Source: Lentisphaeria bacterium
Lineage (GTDB): Bacteria > Verrucomicrobiota > Lentisphaeria > Victivallales > Victivallaceae
Length of the DNA: 54,853 nucleotides
Assembly (NCBI GenBank): GCA_017450705.1
Contig: JAFSTC010000063.1
Location: 1 to 54,853 of the forward strand
Direction of reading: 5' to 3'
Each line of letters begins with the position of its first letter. Within the stretch, counting starts at the first letter, position 1. The position numbers were made by a program, and so were the translations under genes. The notes below the pieces were generated by a model that saw only the letters and a list, made by a program, of their open reading frames with translations, was not told the DNA's origin and made no database searches. Positions 5,220-45,817 of this stretch are shown here, one piece after another.

Positions 5220-6434
5220 ATGGGAAAGTACCGTTTTTTTGCGATCGTATCGTTTTTCTGCTGCGTCCTGGCGGGCGCGGGGGAGATCTTCGTGGACTAC
5301 AACGCTTCCGCCCCGGGCGACGGCTCCCGGAAAAAACCCTTCAGTGACTTCGACCGCGCCATCCGCAAGGCGAAGCCGGGAGACACGGTCAAAATTTTGC
5401 CCGCGGGGAAGATCATCCACGACACGCTGCGTTTCGCGAACATCCGCGGCACCGCCGACAAACCCATCGTCGTCGACGGCATGTTCAACATCTTTTCCGG
5501 CGTCAAGGCGATCGATCCCGCCCAGTGGCAGGAGAAAAGCCCCGGATTGTACTGCCGCCGGGCCAAGATGGCAGAGCCCATGCGGAACCGCTTCTTTCTG
5601 GTGATGAAGGGCAAGATCGTCCGCATGGGACGCTACACCAAGGGCCGGGGAAGCGCCAAATTCAAAAAGCCCGAGACCCTCGGTCCCGGCGAATGGACGA
5701 CCTGCCCCACGCCCGAGAAAAACATCTGGGAGATCTTCGTGCGGCTCCCCGAAAACTGCGCGTCTCTCAAGGATGCTCATATCGAGGAGCCCACGATGAA
5801 AACCGTCTCCGGCGTCATTTTCTACGGCAAGGAGGGCAGTTCCCACGTCACCGTGCGCAACGTCATCGTCCGGCACGTCTGGAACGACGGCTTCAATTTC
5901 CACGGCCCCAACACCCATCTGGTGCTTGAAAACATCGCCGCCGTCGAGTGCGGCGACGACGGGATCAGCGCCCACGAGGCCAATCAGATCTTCGTCCGCA
6001 ACTTCGTCGCCATCGGCAACTCCACCGGCATCTGCCACATCCAGAAGGCCGACTGCACCCATGAAAACGTCTATCTCGAAAACAACCTCGGTCTGGACGT
6101 CGAATTCGTCCAGGACACCCGGAACGTGCTGAAAAACGCCGCGGTCAGCGGCATCGCCCATGACGGGATCCTCATCGGCAACCGCACGGGGTACATGCTG
6201 ATGGAGAACTGCCGCTTCATTGACCGCTCCGGAAAGAGCCCCTTCCGCTTCCCGACGAAAACCGAGGCGAAACTTGAGGTCCGCGACGTGCAGTTCTCGG
6301 GCTACCGGCCGAAGAACCTTCCTGAAAGCATCAAAAAAACCGGGGAGGAACAGCTGAAAACCGCAGTCGAAGAGCAGCGGAAAAAACTTTTCGCCATTTT
6401 CGGCGGCCAGCTGGAACGCGCCCTGAAGCCCTGA
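5220..6434 (+). CDS. Secreted right-handed beta-helix protein (pectate-lyase-like)
   Basis: A 404-residue protein with a clear signal peptide (MGKYRFFAIVSFFCCVLAGA, cleavage near residue 20-22). The mature start, with GEIFVDYNASAPGDGSRKKP and FSDFDRAIRKAKPGDTVKI, is the usual opening of parallel beta-helix proteins. Rungs run to about residue 345, and Asn/Asp-rich turns around 215-290 (WNDGFNFHGP, CGDDGISAHE) could form the active-site face. A Lys/Glu-rich helix closes the protein. Family knowledge points to polysaccharide lyase or glycosidase activity, but catalytic residues cannot be assigned. An in-frame ATG at 5169 lies upstream of the -10 element, so the ATG at 5220 is used. The next gene follows after 25 nt. 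Confidence 0.75.
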   Translation: MGKYRFFAIVSFFCCVLAGAGEIFVDYNASAPGDGSRKKPFSDFDRAIRKAKPGDTVKILPAGKIIHDTLRFANIRGTADKPIVVDGMFNIFSGVKAIDPAQWQEKSPGLYCRRAKMAEPMRNRFFLVMKGKIVRMGRYTKGRGSAKFKKPETLGPGEWTTCPTPEKNIWEIFVRLPENCASLKDAHIEEPTMKTVSGVIFYGKEGSSHVTVRNVIVRHVWNDGFNFHGPNTHLVLENIAAVECGDDGISAHEANQIFVRNFVAIGNSTGICHIQKADCTHENVYLENNLGLDVEFVQDTRNVLKNAAVSGIAHDGILIGNRTGYMLMENCRFIDRSGKSPFRFPTKTEAKLEVRDVQFSGYRPKNLPESIKKTGEEQLKTAVEEQRKKLFAIFGGQLERALKP

Positions 6435-10101: not shown

Positions 10102-10833
10102 TCACTCCCCCTTCATCAGGGCCGTGATGGCGACGGCGGTGGTGTACTTGGAGATGACCTCCTGATGGGTCAGATTGTGTCCGCTGCCGTCGAGGTTGCT
10201 GTGATTGGCGCTCCGGTTGTGCCACAACCCGAGGAGGCTCGAATAGGGATGGCCGGAGTAATTGGAATCCGTTATCACGTAATTGCCCACGTCGGGCACC
10301 AGATTCTTCGTGCTGTAGGCCGTGAAGGCGCCCGCGCCGAGGGACTTGTTGTAGTTGCCGTCCATGTACATCGGGACCCGGGAGGGCCGGGTGACGTCGG
10401 TGAGCTTGCGGAAAACGTCCCCCGCCTGTCCGCCGCGCCCGGTGATGCGCTGGACGGAGTAGGTCCCCTTGAAGAGGGAGCCGTCGCTGAACTTGACGCC
10501 CACGTCGTACCGCCGGGTGTGCCGGGGGCCGCCGGGGCAGTCGAAGGTGCTGACGGAGCAGTATTTCTCCAGCTGCTGGTACCAGGCGATGGAGGTGTAG
10601 ACCAACGTGGTGTTCGTGCCGCTGGCGAAAACGAGGTAATCGTCGTAGTCGCTGCTGTACTGGGTCCCCGCCAGCGCCAGCTGTTTCAGGTTGTTGAGGC
10701 AGTTGGAAGTGCGGGCCCGGTCCCGGGCCTGCTGCAAGGCGGGCATGAGCATCGCGGCCAGAATGGCGATGATGGCGATCACGACCAGGAGCTCGATCAG
10801 GGTGAAAGGTGCTTTTCTTGTTCCGGAAACCAT
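10102..10833 (-). CDS. Type II secretion-style pseudopilin (DUF1559-like)
   Basis: A 243-residue protein with a nine-residue basic leader followed by [20 protein letters not shown]. This is the prepilin cleavage/methylation site and hydrophobic helix, with Glu at mature position 5. A helical [20 protein letters not shown] segment and a Cys-containing globular C-terminal domain follow. It would be processed by a prepilin peptidase and assembled in, or anchored to, the inner membrane. AGGAGG seven nucleotides before the ATG is the best ribosome site in the operon. It lies between a giant secreted protein gene (36 nt upstream) and a DUF4838 gene (9 nt downstream). Two close relatives occur in this window. 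Confidence 0.85.
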
Positions 10834-14347: not shown

Positions 14348-15352
14348 TTACAGACAATGCAGTTTTTTCAGCAGTTCCTCCATGAGCCCGCGGTACTCCT
14401 CCGGCGTCGGACCGGGAAGTTCGAGATCGGCAAGTCCCGGCGGAAGCGAAATGGACCAGCCGGGCATGACGATCACTTCCGGGCGCGGAAGTTCCGGATG
14501 CTCCTCCGCGTACTTCCGGTATCCGAGGCACTGCTCCCCGCAGAAGAACAACAGTTCCGGCGGTTCCCCCGGAGGAGAGAGGAGACGGCTGATCTCGGGA
14601 TACCCGTCCTCGCGGGCATAGACGATCTTCACCTGAGCCCCCGAAACGCTCTCCGAGAGGATCCGTGCATATTTTTCCGCAAAACGGCGGTCGGAATAGG
14701 ACGTATTCGGTCCGGCGATGACGGCGATCCTTCTGCAGCGCCTGTTTTTCAGAAAACGGAGAAGCCTCTTCCGGTCCTCCCGCCAGACGGGAAAAGCGTC
14801 CGTCGCCGGATGCTTCCCGGAAACGGCATACTCTCCCAAAACGACGTAGGGAAGTTTCCCGCGGGCAAAAGCGGTCAGCAGCTGATCGGTGATGCCGCGG
14901 CCGGTGAGGATGATTCCGTCAATATCCGCCGTGTTTTTCAACAGGTCCTCCGCGGGGACATCGCTCTCGAAATTGTGGTAGGGGATCAGCTGATATCCGA
15001 AATACAGCGCCGCCGCGTACAGGGCGTGATCCAGCGCGGAACGAAGCGGATTGATGTCGTTCTTCAGATAACCGATGCGGTGGAACCGATTCGGCTGAAA
15101 CGCCGGTGAAAGGAAATACCCCCGCCGGGCGGAACTCGTGAGGATCCCCTGCTTTACCAACTGTCCCAGCGCATACAGCACGACCTGGCGGCCGACCTCG
15201 AAACGGTCGGCCAGCTGCCGGACGCTCTCCAGTTTTTCCCCGGGCCGGTAACGCCCGGCATAGATCTCTCCCCGCAGATAGCGGATCAGAAAACTGCTGG
15301 AAAACGGTTTCTCCGTCTGTTTTGCCTTCCCGCCGGTGCCGGAGCCTCGCAT
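14348..15352 (-). CDS. GntR-family regulator with LacI-type sensor domain
   Basis: A 334-residue protein. The N-terminal winged helix (about residues 18-75; LRGEIYAGRYRPGEKLESVR, then QLADRFEVGRQVVLYAL) is GntR-like. The rest resembles a periplasmic-binding-protein/LacI sensor domain (residues about 85-330), the layout of AraR-type sugar-responsive repressors. An ATG at 15424 lies upstream of the predicted promoter, so the ATG at 15352 is preferred; the ribosome site there is weak. It is the first gene of the operon that continues with a giant CBM/glycosidase-like protein, a pseudopilin and a DUF4838 protein, so it probably controls its own operon in response to a sugar. Confidence 0.8.
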   Translation of the reverse strand: MRGSGTGGKAKQTEKPFSSSFLIRYLRGEIYAGRYRPGEKLESVRQLADRFEVGRQVVLYALGQLVKQGILTSSARRGYFLSPAFQPNRFHRIGYLKNDINPLRSALDHALYAAALYFGYQLIPYHNFESDVPAEDLLKNTADIDGIILTGRGITDQLLTAFARGKLPYVVLGEYAVSGKHPATDAFPVWREDRKRLLRFLKNRRCRRIAVIAGPNTSYSDRRFAEKYARILSESVSGAQVKIVYAREDGYPEISRLLSPPGEPPELLFFCGEQCLGYRKYAEEHPELPRPEVIVMPGWSISLPPGLADLELPGPTPEEYRGLMEELLKKLHCL

Positions 15353-15396
15353 TTTTTCATCTGTTCCCGTGATCAGACTTTGTTCATCCGGCACAT

Positions 15397-15442
15397 AATA
15401 TAGCACGCATCTGACATATTTCAAATAAAATCTGACATATTT
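15397..15442 (-). promoter_or_regulatory. gntR operon promoter with 13-bp direct repeats
   Basis: On the minus strand TTGAAA (15424-15419), 16 bp and TATATT (15402-15397) form a promoter. Two perfect direct copies of ATCTGACATATTT (15409-15421 and 15430-15442, plus-strand spelling) are spaced 21 bp apart, two helical turns. One copy overlaps the -35 box and the other lies just upstream. This is a plausible binding site for the GntR protein encoded next or for another regulator. Confidence 0.65.
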
Positions 15443-15445
15443 TCA

Positions 15446-16780
15446 TCACGGTTTCAAAGCGAAGGTCTGAGTGTCCTTCAGATATTTCAGGGTTTTCAGC
15501 GCGACGTAGTCGTGGCCGCGGTCGGTCAGATGGACCCCGTCCTGCGGCCGGGTCAGCGCGGCCTTGTCCGGCAGGGCCTTCATGTCGGTGTAAAGATCCA
15601 GATACTCGACACCGTTTTCCCGGGCCAGAGTCCGCAGCACCCGGTCGAAAGCCTCCAGATGGGCCGGTTCGCCGAAGCGGTTGTGCACCCGTTTCGTCTT
15701 CTTCGCGATGGCGTCGCAGACGGCGAAATTGGAGGACGTCGGGGAAAAGAGGATGATCCTTTTCACGCCCCGCTTCCGGAGTTCCGAGATCAGCTGGAGA
15801 TAAAGCTCCTTCTGCCTCGCGGGCGGGACGAGGACCTCCCTGTAGCCGTTGGCGCTGGAGGCCTTGGTGTCGTTGTGACCCAGAAAAACGACCGCCCAGT
15901 CGTAATGCCGGGCCCAGAGGTCACGGTAGCGGTTCTCCCCGGGCTTGAAGCCCTTGCCGTTCAGCCGCTGGATCACCCGCGAGACGGAGTCGCCGCCGCA
16001 GGCGTAGTTCCAGATCTTCACTTTGCCCGGGTTGTACTTGTTGAGGAAGTACCCGACCTTGTCCGCGTGGTTGCGCCCCAGGTCGAAAAAGGTCAGCGAG
16101 TCGCCGAGATAGAGGAAACTCACCGGCTTGTCGATTTTGATCGCCCGGGCGACGGCGTCGAAGGGAGCCGGATCGCCCCTGTCGATGAAGGCGTGAGCCG
16201 TCGCGCCGGAGGACGGATGGACGGCGTCTTGTCCGTTACGGCGGATCTCGGCGTCCGGCACCTCCTCATCGTTCCGGAAAAGCCTGAATTTAAAGGGCGC
16301 GGGCTCGCCCGACACCAGCTGGTACCCGGGATCGGCCTCCAGACGGAAGGCGGGATCGCACAAACGGACCAGTTCCGCCTTGCGGTAGACGCCCTGTCCC
16401 TGAACGATCAGGCCGACGCTCCGGGCCCGCACCGGCAGTTCGGCCGTGAAACTCCCCGCGCCGGAGAGTTCCGGGCTCATCAGACGCGGGGCCTTCTTGC
16501 CCGGTTCTTCGGGGTAGAAGATGAAACCGATCCGGTAAGGACCGGCGTCGGTTTTTTCAATGGCAAAACGGATCTTCGCCCCCCAGGGGAAGATCCTGGG
16601 GACCGTACGGAAATACGGCCGGCCGTCGGTCAGGCGCAAAGTCCGGTCCTTCAGTTCGGCCTGCTGCCGGGTGTTGATGACGCGCCACACGGAATTGGTG
16701 AAGTTGTCCGTGTAGATCCGCTCGTCGGCGGCCGCGGTCAGCACGGCCGCTGCGGCGGCGCAGCAGAGAAGCTTTTTCAT
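15446..16780 (-). CDS. Secreted SGNH/GDSL hydrolase
   Basis: A 444-residue protein with a short signal peptide (MKKLLCCAAAAAVLTAAADE). A beta-sandwich region (about residues 20-200) precedes an SGNH hydrolase domain. The catalytic-block signatures are FLYLGDSLTF (block I, nucleophile Ser), CGGDS (block II Gly), GHND (block III Asn) and DGVHLTDRG (block V, Asp and His). Family members are carbohydrate esterases that remove acetyl or acyl groups from glycans. AAGGGATCGGA just upstream marks the ATG at 16780, 23 nt after the isomerase gene. The two genes form an operon under the promoter at 17757-17730. Confidence 0.85.
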   Translation of the reverse strand: MKKLLCCAAAAAVLTAAADERIYTDNFTNSVWRVINTRQQAELKDRTLRLTDGRPYFRTVPRIFPWGAKIRFAIEKTDAGPYRIGFIFYPEEPGKKAPRLMSPELSGAGSFTAELPVRARSVGLIVQGQGVYRKAELVRLCDPAFRLEADPGYQLVSGEPAPFKFRLFRNDEEVPDAEIRRNGQDAVHPSSGATAHAFIDRGDPAPFDAVARAIKIDKPVSFLYLGDSLTFFDLGRNHADKVGYFLNKYNPGKVKIWNYACGGDSVSRVIQRLNGKGFKPGENRYRDLWARHYDWAVVFLGHNDTKASSANGYREVLVPPARQKELYLQLISELRKRGVKRIILFSPTSSNFAVCDAIAKKTKRVHNRFGEPAHLEAFDRVLRTLARENGVEYLDLYTDMKALPDKAALTRPQDGVHLTDRGHDYVALKTLKYLKDTQTFALKP

Positions 16781-16803: not shown

Positions 16804-17637
16804 TCAGGGCTTGTATTTTTCCAGCAGTTCCGTCAGTTTGCCGACGGCCAGCCGGATGTCGGCGATCTGCTGCGGACCTGCGATCTCCCGTTCGATGATG
16901 AGCTCTCCTGTGAAGCCCAGGTCGTAGAGCTTGGGGATGATCCGGTCGAAATCCGCCCGGCCCTCCCCGAAGGGGACCTCCTTGCCCAGACTGCGGCCGT
17001 CGGTGGGGAAAACGCCGTCCTTGACGTGCAGATTCCGCACGTATTTCCCCACGACCTCCAGCGCGTCCACGGGGTTGCCGCGCCCGTACAAAATGAGATT
17101 GGCCGTGTCGAGATTGACGCCGAGATTGTCCAGACCGACGTCCTCGATGGTGCGCAGGAGCGTAAGCGGCGTCTCCTGACCGGATTCGAACCAGAAGCCG
17201 ATGCCCCGTTCCCGGCAATGGAGCGCGACATCTTTGATCGCCGCCACCGTTTCGGCGTACAGCGGATCCATGGGGTTTTCCGGAATGAAGCCGCAATGGG
17301 TGATGAGGGCCGGCGCACCGATCATGGCGGCGAAGTCCGCGCCCCGTTTCAGCTCGCCGACGCGGCGGGCCCGCTGGTCCCGGGGCACGATTCCGCAGGT
17401 GTCGGGGCCGCCGTAGGAATTCCAAACGATCTTCCCCGTGTACCCGGCCCAGAAGGCCGCCAGCCGGATGCCCGAAGCGGCGAGGTCATGCTTCACTTTC
17501 TCCGCCGTCGCCGCATTCAGATTGTCCATGTCCCAGTTTTGGAGCTGAGCCGTTTTCAGCCCGTAGTCGCGGATCGGAGCAAAGGGGTCCTCCCCCTTCC
17601 TCAGCATGGCGAGAACGCCGATCTCCATCGTCTTCAT
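16804..17637 (-). CDS. Sugar phosphate isomerase/epimerase (AP-endonuclease-2 family TIM barrel)
   Basis: A 277-residue cytosolic TIM barrel of the xylose-isomerase-like family. Typical segments are ITHCGFIPENP (about 110-120), GFWFESGQETP, LGVNLDTANLILYGRGNP (about 168-185), NLHVKDGVFP (about 200-210) and LIIEREIAG (about 245-253). The Glu, Asp, His and Glu at those strand ends usually bind the metal. The substrate is not predictable within this family. It is the first gene of an operon with the SGNH hydrolase. Its promoter carries the same upstream element as the Gfo/Idh and pseudopilin promoters, so it appears to belong to the AraC regulon. Confidence 0.8.
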   Translation of the reverse strand: MKTMEIGVLAMLRKGEDPFAPIRDYGLKTAQLQNWDMDNLNAATAEKVKHDLAASGIRLAAFWAGYTGKIVWNSYGGPDTCGIVPRDQRARRVGELKRGADFAAMIGAPALITHCGFIPENPMDPLYAETVAAIKDVALHCRERGIGFWFESGQETPLTLLRTIEDVGLDNLGVNLDTANLILYGRGNPVDALEVVGKYVRNLHVKDGVFPTDGRSLGKEVPFGEGRADFDRIIPKLYDLGFTGELIIEREIAGPQQIADIRLAVGKLTELLEKYKP

Positions 17638-17729
17638 CTCGAGAAACCCCTTATGTAAAGTTGGCGAAGCGCTTCATCCCGCAGCGGTCACTCTTTTTTT
17701 CACCGGCGGGCTCCCTGTTTCCGGAAGGG

Positions 17730-17795
17730 AATATACATGACCGCTCCCTGTTTGCAAATCCGGTGAACATCAATATTTTTGCAAAAAATTTCATT
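17730..17795 (-). promoter_or_regulatory. Isomerase-SGNH promoter with conserved AraC-type element (copy 2)
   Basis: On the minus strand TTGCAA (17757-17752), 16 bp and TATATT (17735-17730) form the promoter. Just upstream (17795-17766), read in the direction of transcription, is TGAAATTTTTTGCAAA followed by ATATTGATGTT. The same element lies at the same place in front of the Gfo/Idh gene and the pseudopilin gene. Its position against the -35 box suits an activator such as an AraC-family protein. Confidence 0.7.
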
Positions 17796-17834
17796 ATTTT
17801 TGCATTCCATCCGGACGGCAAAGGGAAACGGAAG

Positions 17835-17930
17835 ATGAAGACGGCAGCGTCCTCTCTCCGGAGAATCCACGCGGGGGGGGAGACGCTCCTCTCCCGTTCC
17901 GGGAGCAGCGATTGCGGCATGCCGCAGGAT
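17835..17930 (+). pseudogene. Remnant of a duplicated araC gene (5' end only)
   Basis: The 32 codons from ATG 17835 align with the first 37 codons of the intact AraC gene at 24768. Shared residues include MKTA, RRIHA, ETLLS, SG and MP-D, with an in-frame loss of five codons at a run of eight G residues. DNA identity is also plain: GGAGAATCCACGCGG and GAGACGCTCCTCTCC occur in both. After Asp32 similarity stops and no sensor or HTH sequence follows. The adjacent divergent promoter is duplicated as well. This is therefore a decayed copy of the araC control region; a short peptide product is not excluded. Confidence 0.75.
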
Positions 17931-18048
17931 CGTGATTCGCTTCCGCCCCCCCGGCTCCGTCGCAGGAAACGCCTCGAAACAGCAAATTTTTGAAATGTAT
18001 CAAAAAAGGAACCAAACGAATCTCCGGCAGTCGGACAGTCGGTCTTAA

Positions 18049-18116
18049 AACTGATATTTTTTGCAAAGATATTGATACTCACGCGATTTGCAAAAAGCGT
18101 TTCCCTGTTCTAAATT
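18049..18116 (+). promoter_or_regulatory. Pseudopilin-GH operon promoter with conserved AraC-type element (copy 3)
   Basis: TTGCAA (18088-18093), 17 bp and TAAATT (18111-18116) form the promoter. At 18049-18079 the sequence TGATATTTTTTGCAAA then ATATTGATACT repeats the element found before the isomerase and Gfo/Idh promoters, again ending a few bases upstream of the -35 box. Orientation relative to transcription is the same in all three copies. Confidence 0.7.
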
Positions 18117-18186: not shown

Positions 18187-19239
18187 ATGAAACGTTCAGA
18201 TGACTATTGTGACTTTGCAAGGCCGCCGTATAATAGCTTTGCCCCTCAGACCGCGGGGAGAAGCTCAATCCCCCGTCTGCCGGGCGGATCGGACACGACG
18301 GATGCAACAGGGCAAGCGGTGCGTGTCCCGCGCGACAGCGCCGACCGGCGGAGACGGCAAAGCGGATCGTTTTTCGGATCGGGGCGTCCCTCCGGGAACG
18401 CTTCGTGTCCCGGAGCCGAACTCCCGGCCCGTCGCCGACCGGGCTTTCATACCAGTGGTCCGTGCTCCATCAGGCCCGCTTTCACATTAATCGAACTTCT
18501 TGTTGTCATAGCGATCATAGCGATCCTGGCGTCGATGCTGATGCCGGCGCTGAACAAAGCAAGAATGTCCGCCCAGGGCGGGGCCTGCCGGAACAATTTG
18601 AAGCAGATCGGTCTGGCATCAGCCCTTTATTCCGAATCGATGGACGGCTGGATAATCCCCGGCGATCTGCCTTACAACGGTTCCACGGCAGCCTGGTGTG
18701 CCGTCCTGGGCGGCGGTTACAAGGGACTTGGGAACTTCGGCGTCACGTATTACGGCAATACGAAAACAGCCGGATCATTTGTTTGTCCGGCGGAACCGAT
18801 CCCGTTTGCCTCCAACAAAAACAACGGTTTCACCGGTTGTCATTACGCGGTCAATGTCGCTCTGGCCGGTTCCTATAAATATGCAGGTTCCGTCCGGAGC
18901 TGGGAAATGACCCGGAAGATCCAGGAGATGAAAAGGCCGGCGATGGTCATCTTTGCAATGGACCATATCCGGACCGGAGAAAATATCATCACCTATTCTC
19001 TGTTTACTCCCGCATACCGCCATGGCACCGCGGATTTCCGGCAGCGCACCGTGTATCAGGAAATCATTCAGCAGGGGCAGACCCAGGCGGCAATGCAGGA
19101 TGGACATGTGGAGGACTTCAGTTACGGCGCCCTCGAATCACGCAAAGCATTGTACCCGCAGTCCCCGCCTTCCAACTGTGAACGCTGGCAGTGTGTCGGC
19201 TTCGACGCCTCCACTTCCGCCGGCAAATTTGTCAAATGA
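18187..19239 (+). CDS. Pseudopilin with an unusually long N-terminal leader
   Basis: A 350-residue protein in which the prepilin helix [20 protein letters not shown] starts only at residue 99. The two related pilins in this window have leaders of 6-9 residues. The leader is Arg/Ser/Pro/Gly rich. The mature part is normal: a Cys-containing C-terminal domain and a Gln-rich stretch near residue 300. The ATG at 18187 has GGAGAGGG eight nucleotides upstream. There is no ATG, GTG or TTG in frame close to the pilin motif, so either the long leader is real or a non-standard start is used. A good promoter-like pair, TTGTGA (18207-18212) and TATAAT (18229-18234), lies inside the leader. The gene precedes a giant secreted protein by 73 nt. 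Confidence 0.7.
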
Positions 19240-19312: not shown

Positions 19313-22300
19313 ATGTTGAAGAAAATATCGATTCTGCTTCTGGCGACCGGAACTCTGCTGGCTCACGGATCCCCCGCTCTGCTGCAGAACGGCGACTTCC
19401 GGAAGGGGCTCGAGTGCTGGAGCGTGCGGGATCCGAACGGCGTATCTGTCATCAGAAATGCCGCTCCCGGCGGCGGGAACGCGTTGAAGGCGGTGACCGC
19501 CAAAGAGCATTACGCCGTCAATTACACATTTCAAGGGAAAAAAATCAAGCCCGACACGGACTATACTTTACACGGCTGGATCAAAACCGAGGGGAAGGCA
19601 AAAGTTTACCTTTACTTCACCACACTGCCGATCGTCGATGGAGTCCAGCGATCCGCCAAATCCCGGGTTTTCCAAAAGACTTCGGATTGGACCGAAGTCA
19701 GCGTTCTGCTCAACAGCGGCAAGGCGGCCTGCATGCCGGTTTTGACGCGGGTGATCGGTACGGGAACGGCTTGGTTTGCCGATATTTCAGTGGAAGAGGG
19801 AAATCATCTGCCGCGGGAGAATCTGATCGAAAACAGTGATTTCAAACGCAAGACCCGTTACCGCGACGTGCCGGACAACTGGACTCCCAATCTCCATACG
19901 GGAGCGGCTGAACCTGAAAACTACATTTTCAGACTCTGCGGGGAAACGCCCCCCGTGCCGGATGCCGGAGTCCTCGAAGTTTCAAGAGCGCAGATCGTTC
20001 CGCAGCTGATCCGGCCGCCGGAACCGCAGTTGGCGCACACCTACTCATTTTATGCCAAAAACGCCGTCCCGGGAAAAACCGCGCAGTTGGCCGTCCGTTT
20101 CGGTTTCAACACATACCGTCCGGAAAAGTTCCGGCTGACGGATCAGTGGAAACGTTACTCGTTCACCGGAGACCTGAAAACAGGCAGCCCCTCTTTGTGC
20201 GTTTATTCGCCGGACAACGGACATTTTCTCTATGCCGCACCGCAGTTGATTCTCGGGGAAACGCCGCAGCCGTGGCGGGCTCCGGCTCCCCAGTCCGTTG
20301 TCCGACCGGTCACGGAAAACCGGGAAGCCGTCGCGGAAGCCGTCAGCCGGGAAATTCCGGGGACTCCGTCCGAAGCGGATTGGTCCGCGGCTCCCGCATA
20401 TCCCATCCGGCATATCACAAGAGGGAACCGGCTGGGCCTCGTCGAATCGCACGTCAATATTCTGCACAACAGGGAAAACATTTTTATCCGTTTCAGCGGA
20501 AAAAAAGATCCGGCGATCAAATCCGGAAACCGCGCCGCTCTGGACTGGCGAAACATCTGCGATATCTTCGAACTGTTCATCACCGATACGGCAGCGGACG
20601 GCACATATGTCCAGTATGCCGTCGACGAAAACGGACACAGTTATTCGGGGCGCGGCAAAGAGACCGGGATGCTGGAAATAACATCGCGGGTGACGCGGCA
20701 TCGCGACCGCTGGACCGCCGACGTCAAGATCCCGCTTGACATGTTCCATTCCGACAAAAACTGGAAGATCGCCTTCGGACGCTCTTACGATCACAGCCGT
20801 TACCGGAGAACGGCGTTGGACTGGTCGATGCCCGACAGCCGTCACAATACAGCGAATTTCGGTATTTTGAAGGGCGTATCGGTCAAACCGCTGCCATCGC
20901 CGGAACTGACAAAACTTTATGGGTCCGTCGACGGAACGAAACTGCATTTCGAATTCAGAAATTTCAAAAAGGAAATGCTTCCCGGCAACCTGGAGATCGT
21001 TATTTTCCGGAAAAACCGGCGTCTGTGGAAGCATGAACAGACGTTGACCGACACCCGCGGCGAAATCGTTCTGCCGCGGGACTATGTCAAAATGATGGAC
21101 TCGGAAACCCGGATCCGGCTGACGGTCTCTCAAAGGGACGGCCGGACAAACTATCAGGCGTCACGGATACTCTATCTGCTGTTCTCCTCCTTCGCACGGC
21201 ATGATCCGGCGATGTTTGTCTATCCGAAATACAACTTTTTTACCGAACGGGACCGTACTGTCGATCTTTTGGTCGCGCTGGACAAAAAACGGTATGACAA
21301 TTTGCGGATTTCGATTCTCGGAAAGGACGGCAAAGCAGTGTTCCGGCAAACGGTCTCCGGAGATGTTTCCATTCCCGGGAACAAAATCCCATTCGGCGAT
21401 TACAGCATCAAGACGGAGGCCTTAAAAGACGGCAGCGTCGCCGATATCCGCTGTTATGAGTCTTTCCGGAAACAGCCGTTCCGTCCCGAAATGATCAGAA
21501 TCAACCGCCTGACCGGCTGTCTGGCGAACGCGGAAAAGCAGCTGCTCCCGATGCTGTACTATCCGGGTCCAAACAACCGCTACGCGTACGATCCCGACCG
21601 TGACGCCGGCATGGACCGCCTGTTCGACGGGGCTCTGAGAGCCGGGTTCAGCGGCGTAAAGACCACGTTTTCGCTGCGTGATCCGGCAAAAGAACAGCAA
21701 TGGCTGCGGATCGCGGCAAAACGCGGCTCCTTCTTTCTCGCGGACCTCGAACCGCTGTATCCTCCCGGTTTTTACGGCAAACTGTCGGAAGACATGACCG
21801 GCGCGGAGACCGAAAAGATCCTGATCGAATATACCGGAAAAATGCTCAAACACTGCTTCGGGAAACCGGGAATCCTCTCTTACGCGCCGTACCACGAGCC
21901 GGGATATTACCGCAAGGGGAAAGGCATCGTCGACTCTTACCGGGCGGCGAAGATCCTGCCGGAACTGCGAAAGGAAGATCCTTACCGCCCGCTCACCGGC
22001 TTCTGGGCTCCGCCGCATTGGGATTCCAACGGCGAACCCTTCGGGTCGGTCGACGGCGTGGATTATTTCATCGTGGATGTTTATTCCCGCAACCTGAAAA
22101 AACATTGTGACGAATTATTCCGCATCAGCCGTGCCTCCCGCATCGTCCGGCGTCCTGTCGGTCAGATCTTCAATATCGACAATCAGGGCTCGGATGAGCG
22201 TGAGTGTCCGACTCCGGCGGAGTACAAAGCGGAAGTATATGCGGCTCTGGCCGCCGGATACCGGATATTTTTCCCCTATATCGGCATTGCTCCTGTTCGG

Positions 22301-22636
22301 GAAACATGGCAGGAAATGATCCGGATCAACCGCCAACTGCCCGTTATTGCGGAACTCATATGCGGCGACAATTGCCGGGAACTGGCTTCGGTCAACGACG
22401 AACATATCTGTTACGCCGTCTACCGGCGCGGCGGCGAATTGATCGTGATCGCCGCCAGCAAGGAAAATACCGAAAAAAGCCGTTTGCACCTGAATGTGGA
22501 GAAATTGGCCGGCATCGGCAATGCCCGGGGGCGAGAGCGCTTCACCTCGGAGAAAGTCCGTGTGCGGGACGGATTTTTCGACTGCGTCCTGCCTCCGGCC
22601 GGGAGCGGCATCTGGGTATTTCGGTGTCGGAAATGA
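19313..22636 (+). CDS. Secreted multi-domain glycoside-hydrolase-like protein (1107 aa)
   Basis: A signal peptide (MLKKISILLLATGTLLAHGS) precedes two carbohydrate-binding jelly-roll-like modules (about 20-155 and 165-320; openings LLQNGDF and LIENSDF). A CBM9/DOMON-like module follows (about 345-530), then beta-sandwich sequence and a TIM-barrel-like domain (about 720-1060). The segment YAPYHEPGYY places Glu862 after His and before Pro, like the acid/base Glu of clan GH-A enzymes, where Asn is usual. The second catalytic Glu was not assigned. The gene is in the operon started by the pseudopilin and under the conserved AraC-type element. Base composition is visibly less GC-rich than the genes on either side. 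An AGGAG ribosome site precedes ATG 19313. Confidence 0.7.
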   Translation: MLKKISILLLATGTLLAHGSPALLQNGDFRKGLECWSVRDPNGVSVIRNAAPGGGNALKAVTAKEHYAVNYTFQGKKIKPDTDYTLHGWIKTEGKAKVYLYFTTLPIVDGVQRSAKSRVFQKTSDWTEVSVLLNSGKAACMPVLTRVIGTGTAWFADISVEEGNHLPRENLIENSDFKRKTRYRDVPDNWTPNLHTGAAEPENYIFRLCGETPPVPDAGVLEVSRAQIVPQLIRPPEPQLAHTYSFYAKNAVPGKTAQLAVRFGFNTYRPEKFRLTDQWKRYSFTGDLKTGSPSLCVYSPDNGHFLYAAPQLILGETPQPWRAPAPQSVVRPVTENREAVAEAVSREIPGTPSEADWSAAPAYPIRHITRGNRLGLVESHVNILHNRENIFIRFSGKKDPAIKSGNRAALDWRNICDIFELFITDTAADGTYVQYAVDENGHSYSGRGKETGMLEITSRVTRHRDRWTADVKIPLDMFHSDKNWKIAFGRSYDHSRYRRTALDWSMPDSRHNTANFGILKGVSVKPLPSPELTKLYGSVDGTKLHFEFRNFKKEMLPGNLEIVIFRKNRRLWKHEQTLTDTRGEIVLPRDYVKMMDSETRIRLTVSQRDGRTNYQASRILYLLFSSFARHDPAMFVYPKYNFFTERDRTVDLLVALDKKRYDNLRISILGKDGKAVFRQTVSGDVSIPGNKIPFGDYSIKTEALKDGSVADIRCYESFRKQPFRPEMIRINRLTGCLANAEKQLLPMLYYPGPNNRYAYDPDRDAGMDRLFDGALRAGFSGVKTTFSLRDPAKEQQWLRIAAKRGSFFLADLEPLYPPGFYGKLSEDMTGAETEKILIEYTGKMLKHCFGKPGILSYAPYHEPGYYRKGKGIVDSYRAAKILPELRKEDPYRPLTGFWAPPHWDSNGEPFGSVDGVDYFIVDVYSRNLKKHCDELFRISRASRIVRRPVGQIFNIDNQGSDERECPTPAEYKAEVYAALAAGYRIFFPYIGIAPVRETWQEMIRINRQLPVIAELICGDNCRELASVNDEHICYAVYRRGGELIVIAASKENTEKSRLHLNVEKLAGIGNARGRERFTSEKVRVRDGFFDCVLPPAGSGIWVFRCRK

Positions 22637-22769
22637 AACGGATTTTTCCGCGGCGCCACCGCCGAGGTCCTTCCGGGGCGGACCGCAGGGCACGCCCCTC
22701 AAAATCATCAGTTCCGCCGGTTTTGCAATGGCCCGCGAATCATTCGCCGCCGCTTTCGGCAGCTGCGTT

Positions 22770-23567
22770 CTACCAGTTTCTCAACAGATCCGCTGTCCTG
22801 CCGAGAACCGCCGCGGCGGATGACTCTCCCGAGAAATCGGTTGTTTCCAAGTCAACGTAGAGTTCCCTGCCGCGGGCATCGACCGTGTTCCAGAAACCTT
22901 CAAGATCCCAATCGCCTTCGCCGATCACCGCATTGACGAAGTATTTTCCACACCGTTTCAAATCGGAGTTTTCCGTCGGCTTATCGTAAATCTTCCAATC
23001 TTTCAAATGGAACTGCACCACATATTTTTTCAAAACGGCATAGGAATTTACCGCGGGCTCGGCAGTTTCCATGTTTCCCGGATCCAGCGTGCACATAAGT
23101 CCCGGCACCGCACGCAGGACCTCGAGGATTTCCTCCGCCGTGGTGATCGGGCTGTTGCGCAGACCGGTGCTCTCGGCCGTCAAGGTGATTCCGGCCGACT
23201 GGGCCAACGGCTGCGTCCGCGCATAAAATTCGATCCACGCTTTGCGGTCGTCCTCCATGGAGATCTGCTCTCGCCGCGGAAACGGCGGCAGCATCATGAC
23301 CGGCGCGCCCAAATCACAAGCGAATTCGAGGCTTCTCCTGAAATCGTCCAGCGCATTCGGGTCACGGGTCGGAAACGTCGAATCCAATACCGTATGGGAG
23401 ACGATCTTAAGTCCGCTGTCTTCGGATAATTTCCGCAATTGTTTCGCCGGAGCATACCGACGGCTGCAAACCCAGTCGATCGCCGCCATGCCGCATTCCA
23501 CGGCGGTCCGAACGATTTTTTCCGGTCCGGCATCCCGCATCACGCAGGACATCATGCAAAGTTTCAT
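22770..23567 (-). CDS. Sugar phosphate isomerase/epimerase (TIM barrel)
   Basis: A 265-residue xylose-isomerase-like TIM barrel starting MKLCMMSCVMRDAG. Characteristic segments are PVMMLPPFPRRE (about 90-101), ITLTAESTGLRNSP (about 125-138), MCTLDPGNMETAEP (about 157-170), VVQFHLKDWKIYD (about 182-194) and LYVDLETTD (about 240-248). These supply the usual Glu/Asp/His/Glu metal site. Its ATG overlaps the stop of the Gfo/Idh gene in ATGA, so the two are translationally coupled. The pairing with an oxidoreductase suggests catabolism of a modified or unusual sugar. It is clearly different in sequence from the isomerase at 16804. Confidence 0.8.
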   Translation of the reverse strand: MKLCMMSCVMRDAGPEKIVRTAVECGMAAIDWVCSRRYAPAKQLRKLSEDSGLKIVSHTVLDSTFPTRDPNALDDFRRSLEFACDLGAPVMMLPPFPRREQISMEDDRKAWIEFYARTQPLAQSAGITLTAESTGLRNSPITTAEEILEVLRAVPGLMCTLDPGNMETAEPAVNSYAVLKKYVVQFHLKDWKIYDKPTENSDLKRCGKYFVNAVIGEGDWDLEGFWNTVDARGRELYVDLETTDFSGESSAAAVLGRTADLLRNW

Positions 23568-24583
23568 GATCGCCGCCGCGCCTTCGCTTCCGGCAGCGGA
23601 TGACCGGTCTCTTCGGCGATCCGCGTACAGCACAGGATCGTGCCGCGGGCGTCCTCTCCGGAACAGATCTCCGACCTGTCGCCGGTCCTCACCGCCCGGA
23701 TGAAATCTTCGATCTCCGTGAAATACGGGTCGTCCGGCCGGAAATCATGTTCCGTGACGCCGCCCGGCCCGTACTCAGTGACCTTTCCCGCCTCGGAACT
23801 CACCAACGTACCATTTTCGAAATATGCGGCAAAACTCCGCCCGAAGGGATACCCCGGGGGAGTCACGAACCCGCCCTCGACGGAAACGGCGGCGTCGCCG
23901 AAACGCAGGACCGACGAGATCATCTCGAACTGCGATCCGCCGAGCCCCCGCACGGACTCGATCCCGTCGGGCTCCCCGAGACAGGACCGGGCGAAGTCGA
24001 TGTCGTGGGAGACCAGGTCGAAGAGCGCCCCGCCGGAGGCGCGGAGGAACTCGGGATCGTTCCAGCTGCCCCAGTTCGGGATCCCCGTGATCCGCGACAT
24101 TTTGAGATAGGTCAGGTGCCCCGGACGTCCGGAGGAGATGGTCTCTTTCAGGAAACGGTATTCCTTCATCCGGCGGACGACGTAGCCCACGGCGAGCAGT
24201 TTGTTTGCCTCTTCTGCCGCACGGATCATGCGGCCGCACTCCGGCAGACTCACGGCGAAGGGTTTCTCCACAAAAACGTGCAGTCCCGCGCCGAAGCACC
24301 GGAGGACGGCGCCGCAATGCAGTTTCGTCGGCAGGGCAATGACCGCCGCGTCCGCGTCGCCCGACCGGAGCGCCTCGTCCAGGCTGCGGAAATGCCGGAT
24401 AGCGCCCAGCGCCTCCTGAGAAACCCGCTCCGTCGCGCGGTTGCCCGTGATCGTCCTCAGGCGCTCCAGGGGATCGGCGGGATCGACGATGCCGGTCAAT
24501 GCCGCATCGGGCATTTTCAGCAGGCTGGCGGCATGGGTCTGCCCCATGAACCCGAAGCCCAGAACGATCACTCTTGTTTTCAC
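23564..24583 (-). CDS. Gfo/Idh/MocA-family oxidoreductase
   Basis: A 339-residue NAD(P)-dependent dehydrogenase. The N-terminal Rossmann fold has VLGFGFMGQTHAASL (about 5-20), and the family motif VFVEKPFA (about 95-103) carries the catalytic-type Lys in EKP. The C-terminal alpha/beta domain contains GGALFDLVSHDIDFARSCLG with the conserved Asp and His. I place the start at GTG 24583, with CGGAG about 8 nt upstream, because the ATG at 24628 lies upstream of the predicted -10 box. The gene is coupled by an ATGA overlap to the isomerase downstream and is divergent from araC. The substrate is likely a sugar or cyclitol. Confidence 0.85.
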   Translation of the reverse strand: MKTRVIVLGFGFMGQTHAASLLKMPDAALTGIVDPADPLERLRTITGNRATERVSQEALGAIRHFRSLDEALRSGDADAAVIALPTKLHCGAVLRCFGAGLHVFVEKPFAVSLPECGRMIRAAEEANKLLAVGYVVRRMKEYRFLKETISSGRPGHLTYLKMSRITGIPNWGSWNDPEFLRASGGALFDLVSHDIDFARSCLGEPDGIESVRGLGGSQFEMISSVLRFGDAAVSVEGGFVTPPGYPFGRSFAAYFENGTLVSSEAGKVTEYGPGGVTEHDFRPDDPYFTEIEDFIRAVRTGDRSEICSGEDARGTILCCTRIAEETGHPLPEAKARRRS

Positions 24584-24610
24584 CGATCCACTCCGTTTGT
24601 TCCGGAAAGA

Positions 24611-24676
24611 ATATACATGGCCGCCCACCTGTTTTCAAATTTCGGCAATATCAATATATTTGCAAAAAATTTCATT
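24611..24676 (-). promoter_or_regulatory. Gfo/Idh promoter with conserved AraC-type element (copy 1)
   Basis: On the minus strand TTGAAA (24639-24634), 17 bp and TATATT (24616-24611) form the promoter. Immediately upstream (24676-24648), in the direction of transcription, is TGAAATTTTTTGCAAA followed by ATATTGATATT. This is nearly identical to the element before the isomerase-SGNH operon. It is within 100 bp of the divergent araC gene, which probably encodes its regulator. Confidence 0.75.
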
Positions 24677-24714
24677 TTTTCATGCCCCGAATTCGGACAG
24701 ATGTTTCACTTGAT

Positions 24715-24742
24715 TTGAATATTCCGAGTCTCGCGGTATATT
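24715..24742 (+). promoter_or_regulatory. araC promoter
   Basis: TTGAAT (24715-24720), 16 bp and TATATT (24737-24742) fit the local promoter form. Transcription would begin near 24749, which rules out the in-frame ATG at 24744 and leaves ATG 24768 with GGGAG (24756-24760) as ribosome site. Confidence 0.6.
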
Positions 24743-24767
24743 AATGCCGGTTGCCGGGAGAATGACG

Positions 24768-25664
24768 ATGAAAACAGCAATTTCCCTCGTGCGGAGAATC
24801 CACGCGGAACGTCCTTTTTACGATGAGGAGACGCTCCTCTCCTGTTCCGGAGCGGACGATCACAGCATGCCTCTGGATATCTTCTGCTTCGGCCACTCGC
24901 TTTTCAGGCGGGGAGCCGAGATCCATATCGTGCGGCATGACTGGATCGTCCAGTTCCAGCTCTCGGGGCGGACGCAGATCCTCACCCGGGACGAAAAGAT
25001 CCTCATGGAGCCGGGGGATCTTCTGATCTCTCCGCCGGGCGTGCCCTACACCTACAACGTCCCGCAGGCGAACGACATGACGAAATACTACATGATCTTC
25101 CGCTCGAGTCCGCTGCTGGAGATCCTGCTGGGGCGGGAGATCCGTCAGAACGGCATGAAGATCCGATTTCAGGAGCCGGACTCCGTCCGGACTTTGCTGG
25201 AGGAGATCGGCACTCTGTTCGAGAAACAGGAATTCGCCTTCAGGGAACGGCTCAGCATCAAACTTTACGACCTGGTCTGCCGGATCCGGAGCGCCGTCCG
25301 CATGACCGGCCCCGAGGACGGCTTTTTCAAAAAGCTGAACAAGTCCGTCAACGATCTGATGAACCGGCAGATAACGCTGGAAAAACTCTCCGAAAGTTTC
25401 GGCGTCGGCAAAGTCACATTGATCCGGGAATTCAAAAAACACACCGGGATGCCGCCCGTGGCCTACATGATCCGGATCCGGCACGAGTACGCCCGGCAGC
25501 TGCTCCAGATGAGCGACATGACCGTTTCCGAGATCGCCGCGTGCTGCGGCTACTCATCGGCCTCCTTTTTCATCAGCGATTTCAGGAAGCATCAGGGACT
25601 CACCCCCGGACAGTTCCGCGCCCGCAGCACCGGGGAAGCCCCGCCGCCGCCCGAAGAGGCATGA
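24768..25664 (+). CDS. AraC-family transcriptional regulator
   Basis: A 298-residue regulator. The N-terminal cupin-like sensor (about residues 15-150) includes VQFQLSGRTQILTRDEKILM and EPGDLLISPPGVPYTYNVP. The C-terminal AraC double helix-turn-helix (about 190-285) includes ITLEKLSESFGVGKVTLIRE and MTVSEIAACCGYSSASFFIS, with the second helix followed by the typical FRKHQGLTPGQFR. It diverges from the Gfo/Idh operon, and the intergenic space holds one of three copies of a conserved element, so it is the obvious candidate regulator of all three operons. A decayed copy of its first codons lies at 17835. The start is chosen from the promoter and ribosome site. Confidence 0.9.
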   Translation: MKTAISLVRRIHAERPFYDEETLLSCSGADDHSMPLDIFCFGHSLFRRGAEIHIVRHDWIVQFQLSGRTQILTRDEKILMEPGDLLISPPGVPYTYNVPQANDMTKYYMIFRSSPLLEILLGREIRQNGMKIRFQEPDSVRTLLEEIGTLFEKQEFAFRERLSIKLYDLVCRIRSAVRMTGPEDGFFKKLNKSVNDLMNRQITLEKLSESFGVGKVTLIREFKKHTGMPPVAYMIRIRHEYARQLLQMSDMTVSEIAACCGYSSASFFISDFRKHQGLTPGQFRARSTGEAPPPPEEA

Positions 25665-45112: not shown

Positions 45113-45817
45113 ATGAAAGAAAAACGCCGTTTCACCCTCATCGAGCTCTTGGTCGTGATCGCCATCATCGCCATCCTGGCGGCGATGCTCATGCCCGCGC
45201 TGCAGCAGGCCCGGGACCGGGCCAAACTCAACAACTGCATGGCCAACACGAAACAGATCATCGGGGCCTTCGGCTTCTACGTGGACGGCAACGATCTGTG
45301 GTGCCCCATCGCTTACTACAACTGGCCCAAGCTCAGCGGCACGTGGGCGCGCAAATTCATGGATGCGAAATACCTGACCCTCAAGGTCCTGCAGTGCCCC
45401 GGCGCAACCTTCGAGCCCGGAAAGCCCCACTCCGAGAGCAACACCGGCATCGGTCTCAACTACGGCACCTTCGGCAACACGACGGCAAGCGACTACTTCG
45501 TCCGCGAGCCCACCGTGACCTCCTTCGGCCGGAACAGCCGTCTGGTGACCTTCGCCGACGTGCCCACCCAGAGCGCGAAGTATGCCGGCAGCAACGGCCG
45601 GACCTTCAGCCGCAGTCAGGGGTTCTTCGAAGAGAATCCCGCGGCCTATCACCCCATGTCGGTCCGCCACGCGGGCAATGCCACATGCGGATTCTTCGAC
45701 GGACACGCGGCCGTCAAGAGCCGTTCGGAACTGGAACCCATCAAGGGATATCTGTCGCTCTTCAATCCGACCCGGGCGGGGTCTCCCGTCGCGGGACAGC
45801 TCTGGAACAGACAGTAG
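45113..45817 (+). CDS. Type II secretion-style pseudopilin (DUF1559-like)
   Basis: A 234-residue protein with a six-residue basic leader before [20 protein letters not shown], followed by a [20 protein letters not shown] helix and a globular domain with a C-terminal [12 protein letters not shown] segment typical of these proteins. AAAAGGAG eight nucleotides before ATG 45113 decides the start; an ATG at 45068 overlaps the regulator gene. The first 45 residues are nearly identical to those of the pilin at 10102, while the C-terminal domains differ. Second gene of the gntR operon. Confidence 0.85.

Follow-up and report, generated by a model that had tools for sequence, protein, structure and literature searches.

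A decayed duplicate of a divergent Gfo/araC control region and the probable division of an AraC-controlled operon in a Lentisphaeria bacterium

In a stretch of 54,853 nucleotides (hereafter the window) from a gut-type Lentisphaeria bacterium, the control region between an AraC-family regulator gene and the divergent gene of a Gfo/Idh/MocA oxidoreductase is found a second time, in front of a different gene and followed by only the start of araC. This raises the question of where the second copy came from, and whether it shows how one regulator came to control several operons, as a sequence-only reading of the locus had proposed. The window belongs to a draft assembly (3.97 Mb, 117 contigs) and was compared within a set of 34 genomes of the genus. 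The key relatives are G005 (nearest), G042 (intermediate; araC 55% identical) and the more distant G012 and G001.

Extent and content of the duplicated control region

The features of the cluster are as follows; promoter elements are putative and were assigned from promoter geometry or alignment.

15446–16780, − strand: GDSL-lipase/acylhydrolase gene (PF13472)
16804–17637, − strand: iso, intact xylose-isomerase-like TIM-barrel gene (PF01261)
17674–17703, − strand: relict of the Gfo/Idh gene start (alignment; sequence read directly)
17676–17796, no strand: duplicated divergent control region, relict copy A
17730–17735, − strand: −10-like hexamer TATATT of the leftward (iso) promoter
17751–17785, − strand: operator A, 0 mismatches
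17835–17930, + strand: relict of the first 37 araC codons, five codons deleted (alignment, translation)
18060–18094, + strand: operator P1, in front of the prepilin-CBM operon, 0 mismatches, also in G005
18111–18116, + strand: −10-like hexamer TAAATT of the prepilin promoter, 18 bp from TTTGCA
18187–19239, + strand: gene for a protein with a prepilin-type N-methylation motif (PF07963)
19313–22636, + strand: gene for a large protein with a CBM_4_9 carbohydrate-binding domain (PF02018)
22770–23567, − strand: X, second isomerase-like TIM-barrel gene (PF01261)
23564–24583, − strand: intact Gfo/Idh/MocA oxidoreductase gene (PF01408)
24565–24680, no strand: intact divergent control region, copy B (alignment)
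24610–24615, − strand: −10-like hexamer TATATT of the Gfo promoter
24632–24666, − strand: operator B, 1 mismatch
24715–24742, + strand: likely araC promoter (TTGAAT-16-TATATT), conserved in G005
24768–25664, + strand: intact AraC-family regulator gene (PF12833, PF00165, PF02311)

The regulator was shown to contain the C-terminal helix-turn-helix domain of the AraC type (PF12833, E 1.4e-21; PF00165, E 4e-13) and an N-terminal cupin-like sugar-sensing domain (PF02311, E 1.6e-7, above the cut-off of this family). The genome as a whole gives 62 matches to AraC-type genes.

Pairwise alignment of 17685–17799 with 24565–24680 showed 79% DNA identity over 117 bp (E 5e-21), which bears out the match proposed between a promoter at 17715–17796 and 24598–24677; the score was 124, compared to a mean of 19 and a maximum of 34 in 1000 dinucleotide shuffles. 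In addition, two pieces of the araC start were found downstream, 17823–17874 matching 24756–24807 (77%) and 17879–17930 matching 24827–24878 (83%), with a score of 80 (mean 17 and maximum 31 in 1000 dinucleotide shuffles). Homology above chance is present at both ends, beyond the binding boxes, and copy A contains both the Gfo start and the araC start. The divergent Gfo/araC control region is present a second time, in decayed form, at 17676–17930, with differences between the copies at about 29% of aligned sites. The duplicate proposed earlier is thus real, except that its left border lies further left, at about 17676, and takes in the Gfo/Idh start codon plus about nine codons. This relict starts with GTG and reads V-K-K-R-V-T-A-A-G followed by TGA, compared to V-K-T-R-V-I-V-L-G in the intact copy, and forms a nine-codon mini-ORF ahead of iso.

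At the other end, the translation alignment (MKTAASSLRRIHAGG-----ETLLSRSGSSDCGMPQD compared to MKTAISLVRRIHAERPFYDEETLLSCSGADDHSMPLD) confirmed that the 32 codons at 17835–17930 correspond to codons 1–37 of araC, five of which are deleted at a run of eight Gs. Recognisable araC sequence amounts to no more than about 40 codons, in agreement with the earlier statement that the rest of the second gene is gone; it may be that the duplication ended here, rather than that a full second gene slowly decayed. No intact second araC was found at this locus among the 34 genomes of the genus, and G005 contains no relict between GDSL and the prepilin promoter. The relict differs from araC at 26 of 96 bases (9, 7, and 10 at codon positions 1, 2, and 3), compared to 5, 3, and 8 differences for the same codons of intact araC between the window and G005; these numbers are small, and they suggest that the relict is no longer evolving like coding sequence. 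The stretch between the operator and the araC start, which in copy B holds the likely rightward araC promoter, is missing from copy A. Having lost this promoter, the araC piece is probably inert. Its frame does remain open past 17930 to a stop at 17993, with the ATG kept and the remaining residues matching the start of AraC, as would be expected if a 52-residue N-terminal fragment were expressed as a short regulatory peptide. We regard this as highly unlikely given the missing promoter and the lack of a third-position excess among the differences; besides, G005 conserves the stretch removed by the five-codon loss, and the frame ends in a tail that is not AraC-like.

A shared operator and its conservation in copy A

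The constant element in the aligned control regions was found to be a 35-bp operator, TTTGCAAANATATTGAT-N9-ATTTGCAAA. It occurs three times in the window and never in shuffled sequence, and no further site with up to three mismatches was found in the 3.97-Mb genome. A wide regulon with operators dispersed over the genome was rejected, all three sites at this threshold lying in the cluster. Among the 34 genomes of the genus the operator is present in three, the window genome, G005, and G042 (two copies each in the latter two), and all seven copies sit in this cluster. The same three genomes are the only ones with this araC at an identity of at least 55%. G012, which has a relative of araC at 34% identity, contains no operator, and a search with the reversed pattern as control gave no sites.

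The arrangement of operator and −10-like hexamer, with the hexamer 17–18 bp from the inner half-site at all seven sites, fits an AraC-family activator that binds in place of the −35 element. Most likely, the AraC of the cluster recognises two half-sites within the 35-bp operator, of which the inner one lies at the −35 position; we infer such binding from the co-occurrence of the operator and this araC in the same three of 34 genomes. In copy A the spacer between the half-site TTTGCA and the −10 hexamer (17736–17752) is 17 bp, compared to 18 bp at the other six sites, which might make iso depend less on the regulator.

The proposal that the operator was kept while the coding copy decayed was supported by the distribution of changes specific to the relict. 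None of 25 alignable positions in the operator core of copy A carries a change absent from both copy B and G005, compared to 58 of 251 (23%) elsewhere (one-sided Fisher P 0.002; P 0.005 compared to the rest of the promoter only), a comparison slightly favoured by the motif having been recognised partly from copy A, although the other six sites give the same core. The leftward promoter also survives. The iso gene is intact and under purifying selection (dN/dS 0.09 compared to G005). Because the core is unchanged, the araC relict resembles non-coding sequence and iso is constrained, the simplest explanation for operator A and the leftward promoter is that they are the functional promoter of iso-GDSL.

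Gene order and the division of the operon

In G005, the cluster forms one stretch that reads GDSL(−) / prepilin(+) CBM(+) / iso(−) X(−) Gfo(−) / araC(+). In the window it reads GDSL(−) iso(−) / relict of the control region and of the beginning of araC / prepilin(+) CBM(+) / X(−) Gfo(−) / araC(+). The window thus lacks iso exactly between CBM and X, where G005 has it; instead iso lies directly behind the duplicated control region, with GDSL immediately downstream, as in G042. In G005 GDSL and iso are apart. The more distant genomes G012 and G001 likewise have X next to iso (order Gfo-X-iso), so that the separation of iso from X in the window is a derived state and the undivided operon is still seen in relatives. 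G042 has GDSL and iso adjacent, no X, and then Gfo and araC, and its iso has an operator of its own (L066, 6055–6089).

Some further features were observed in and around these genes. A GntR-type regulator gene (14348–15424) lies between GDSL and a GH123-like gene in the window and in G005 and is absent from that place in G042. In the prepilin-like frame, the N-methylation motif is preceded by a long stretch (18187–18480; about 97 residues in the window, about 42 in G005) that starts with MKRS in both and is unusual as a prepilin leader; the true start codon may lie elsewhere than at 18187. About 72 bp encoding the motif (18470–18560) were found with 77–92% DNA identity at 39 other scored places in the genome, including 45126–45223 and 10727–10806; conserved codons, conversion, or shared origin may account for this likeness. 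Between the operator and the start codon of the G042 iso (L066, about 5980–6005) lies a perfect inverted repeat, GGCTGTCC-7-GGACAGCC.

The explanation that we favour, with a probability of roughly 0.7, is that one AraC-controlled operon was divided by a segmental, probably tandem, duplication and subsequent complementary loss, with iso staying under the control of AraC. The duplication, the gene orders, the conservation of the operator, and its co-occurrence with araC were observed directly, and from them we infer a possible order of events. The left end of the duplication would have lain near the prepilin promoter or at GDSL, and the right end at about codon 37–45 of araC. The left copy, beside GDSL, would then have lost X, Gfo apart from its very start, the araC promoter, and araC beyond about 37 codons (in one version also prepilin-CBM), and the right copy would have lost iso. 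What remained on the left would be operator A with the leftward promoter, directly in front of iso-GDSL, and operator A would survive because iso still needs it. AraC is predicted to activate iso-GDSL, Gfo-X, and prepilin-CBM in parallel. The losses of X, Gfo, and iso are deduced from gene order, since no recognisable remains of X or Gfo were found in the 36-bp gap that separates iso from the Gfo relict (17638–17673) and no clear remains of iso at 22640–22750, with nothing beyond chance in either place. Against this explanation stands the adjacency of GDSL and iso that the window has in common with G042, where iso has its own operator; part of the gene order of the window could be old.

As to the timing of the duplication, the sites informative on whether it preceded the split of the window and G005 gave nearly equal support (7:7:6, with G042 as outgroup). 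A common ancestor may have carried both copies, with opposite outcomes in the two lineages: the window would have kept the left iso, and G005 the right iso without any left control region. An older date of this kind is hinted at by the dS of iso compared to G005, which is the highest (1.00, against 0.50–0.69 for prepilin, CBM, X, Gfo, and araC), by the one alignment that runs through the GDSL-iso junction of the window and G042, and by the larger distance of copy A from copy B (81/276) and from G005 (89/276) than between copy B and G005 (64/276). However, dS is also high for GntR (0.92) and GDSL (0.81) on the left side, so that iso may only reflect its region, and a long branch is in any case expected of a copy in decay. 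As G005 has no relict in the corresponding place and about as many events are needed, we consider the older date a tentative variant of the favoured explanation, at somewhat short of even odds. It is unlikely that iso with its own operator is simply an old state common to G042, that G005 was rearranged and that no recent split occurred in the lineage of the window. The order in G042 agrees with this, but the Gfo-X-iso order of G012 and G001 agrees with G005, and the two G042 operators are more alike (86% over 51 bp, with a common half-site change to ATTGAAAA) than either is to copy A. Because of this mutual likeness, which ends at the operator without any Gfo or araC start, the operator of the G042 iso would be a separate gain or the product of later conversion. 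A chimeric join within the contig, for which only the draft state of the assembly speaks, is very improbable, the two copies being too different for mis-joined reads and the GDSL-iso junction being matched by the independent genome G042.

It is quite possible, though we would not bet on it, that iso independently gained a private copy of the same AraC operator twice, by segmental duplication in the window and by an operator-sized copy in G042; if true, this would be a case of repeated, selected splitting of one operon under an unchanged regulator. The proposal that the duplication shows how one regulator gained several operons found no support in that form: in G005 iso is already a member of the Gfo operon next to araC, and the iso of G042 is preceded by a separate operator. 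The third operon, prepilin-CBM, likewise has its operator in G005 without any relict. The relict shows the division of an operon under one regulator, not the first gain of several operons, and on the best reading the duplication brought no new target under the regulator but preserved and partitioned the control already in place.

Comparison with known systems

A search of the literature on promoter duplication with divergent AraC genes and on AraC regulation in Lentisphaerae found nothing directly relevant. To our knowledge, Lentisphaeria genomes hold dozens of AraC-type genes whose targets are mostly unknown. The element described here is a well-defined candidate operator for one such regulator, and searches for the relict starts of regulator genes next to operators might assist in mapping such regulons from sequence alone.

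In local systems of the araC-araBAD type, AraC/XylS-family activators lie beside divergent target operons. The present cluster resembles them in its divergent regulator and target and in its repeated half-sites, with the inner one at the −35 position; it differs in having three local operators within one Lentisphaeria carbohydrate cluster, at which binding is predicted from sequence. Splitting and shuffling in bacterial evolution are reportedly part of the operon 'life cycle' described by Price, Arkin and Alm. As in that scheme, a gene would have left its operon and ended behind a separate promoter near its old neighbours, whereas here the new promoter is traceable to the duplicated divergent control region of the old operon, with relicts of both flanking genes. 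In duplication-degeneration-complementation (subfunctionalisation), two copies each lose what the other keeps. The complementary loss proposed here is similar, but its units are whole operon genes and one shared operator, not the expression domains of one gene. The locus offers a clean snapshot of how an operon can be divided without a gene leaving its regulator, in which the binding site persists after the control region has been duplicated and the coding copies have been trimmed from both sides. This is ordinary operon evolution, an event of a known kind that is unusually well preserved.
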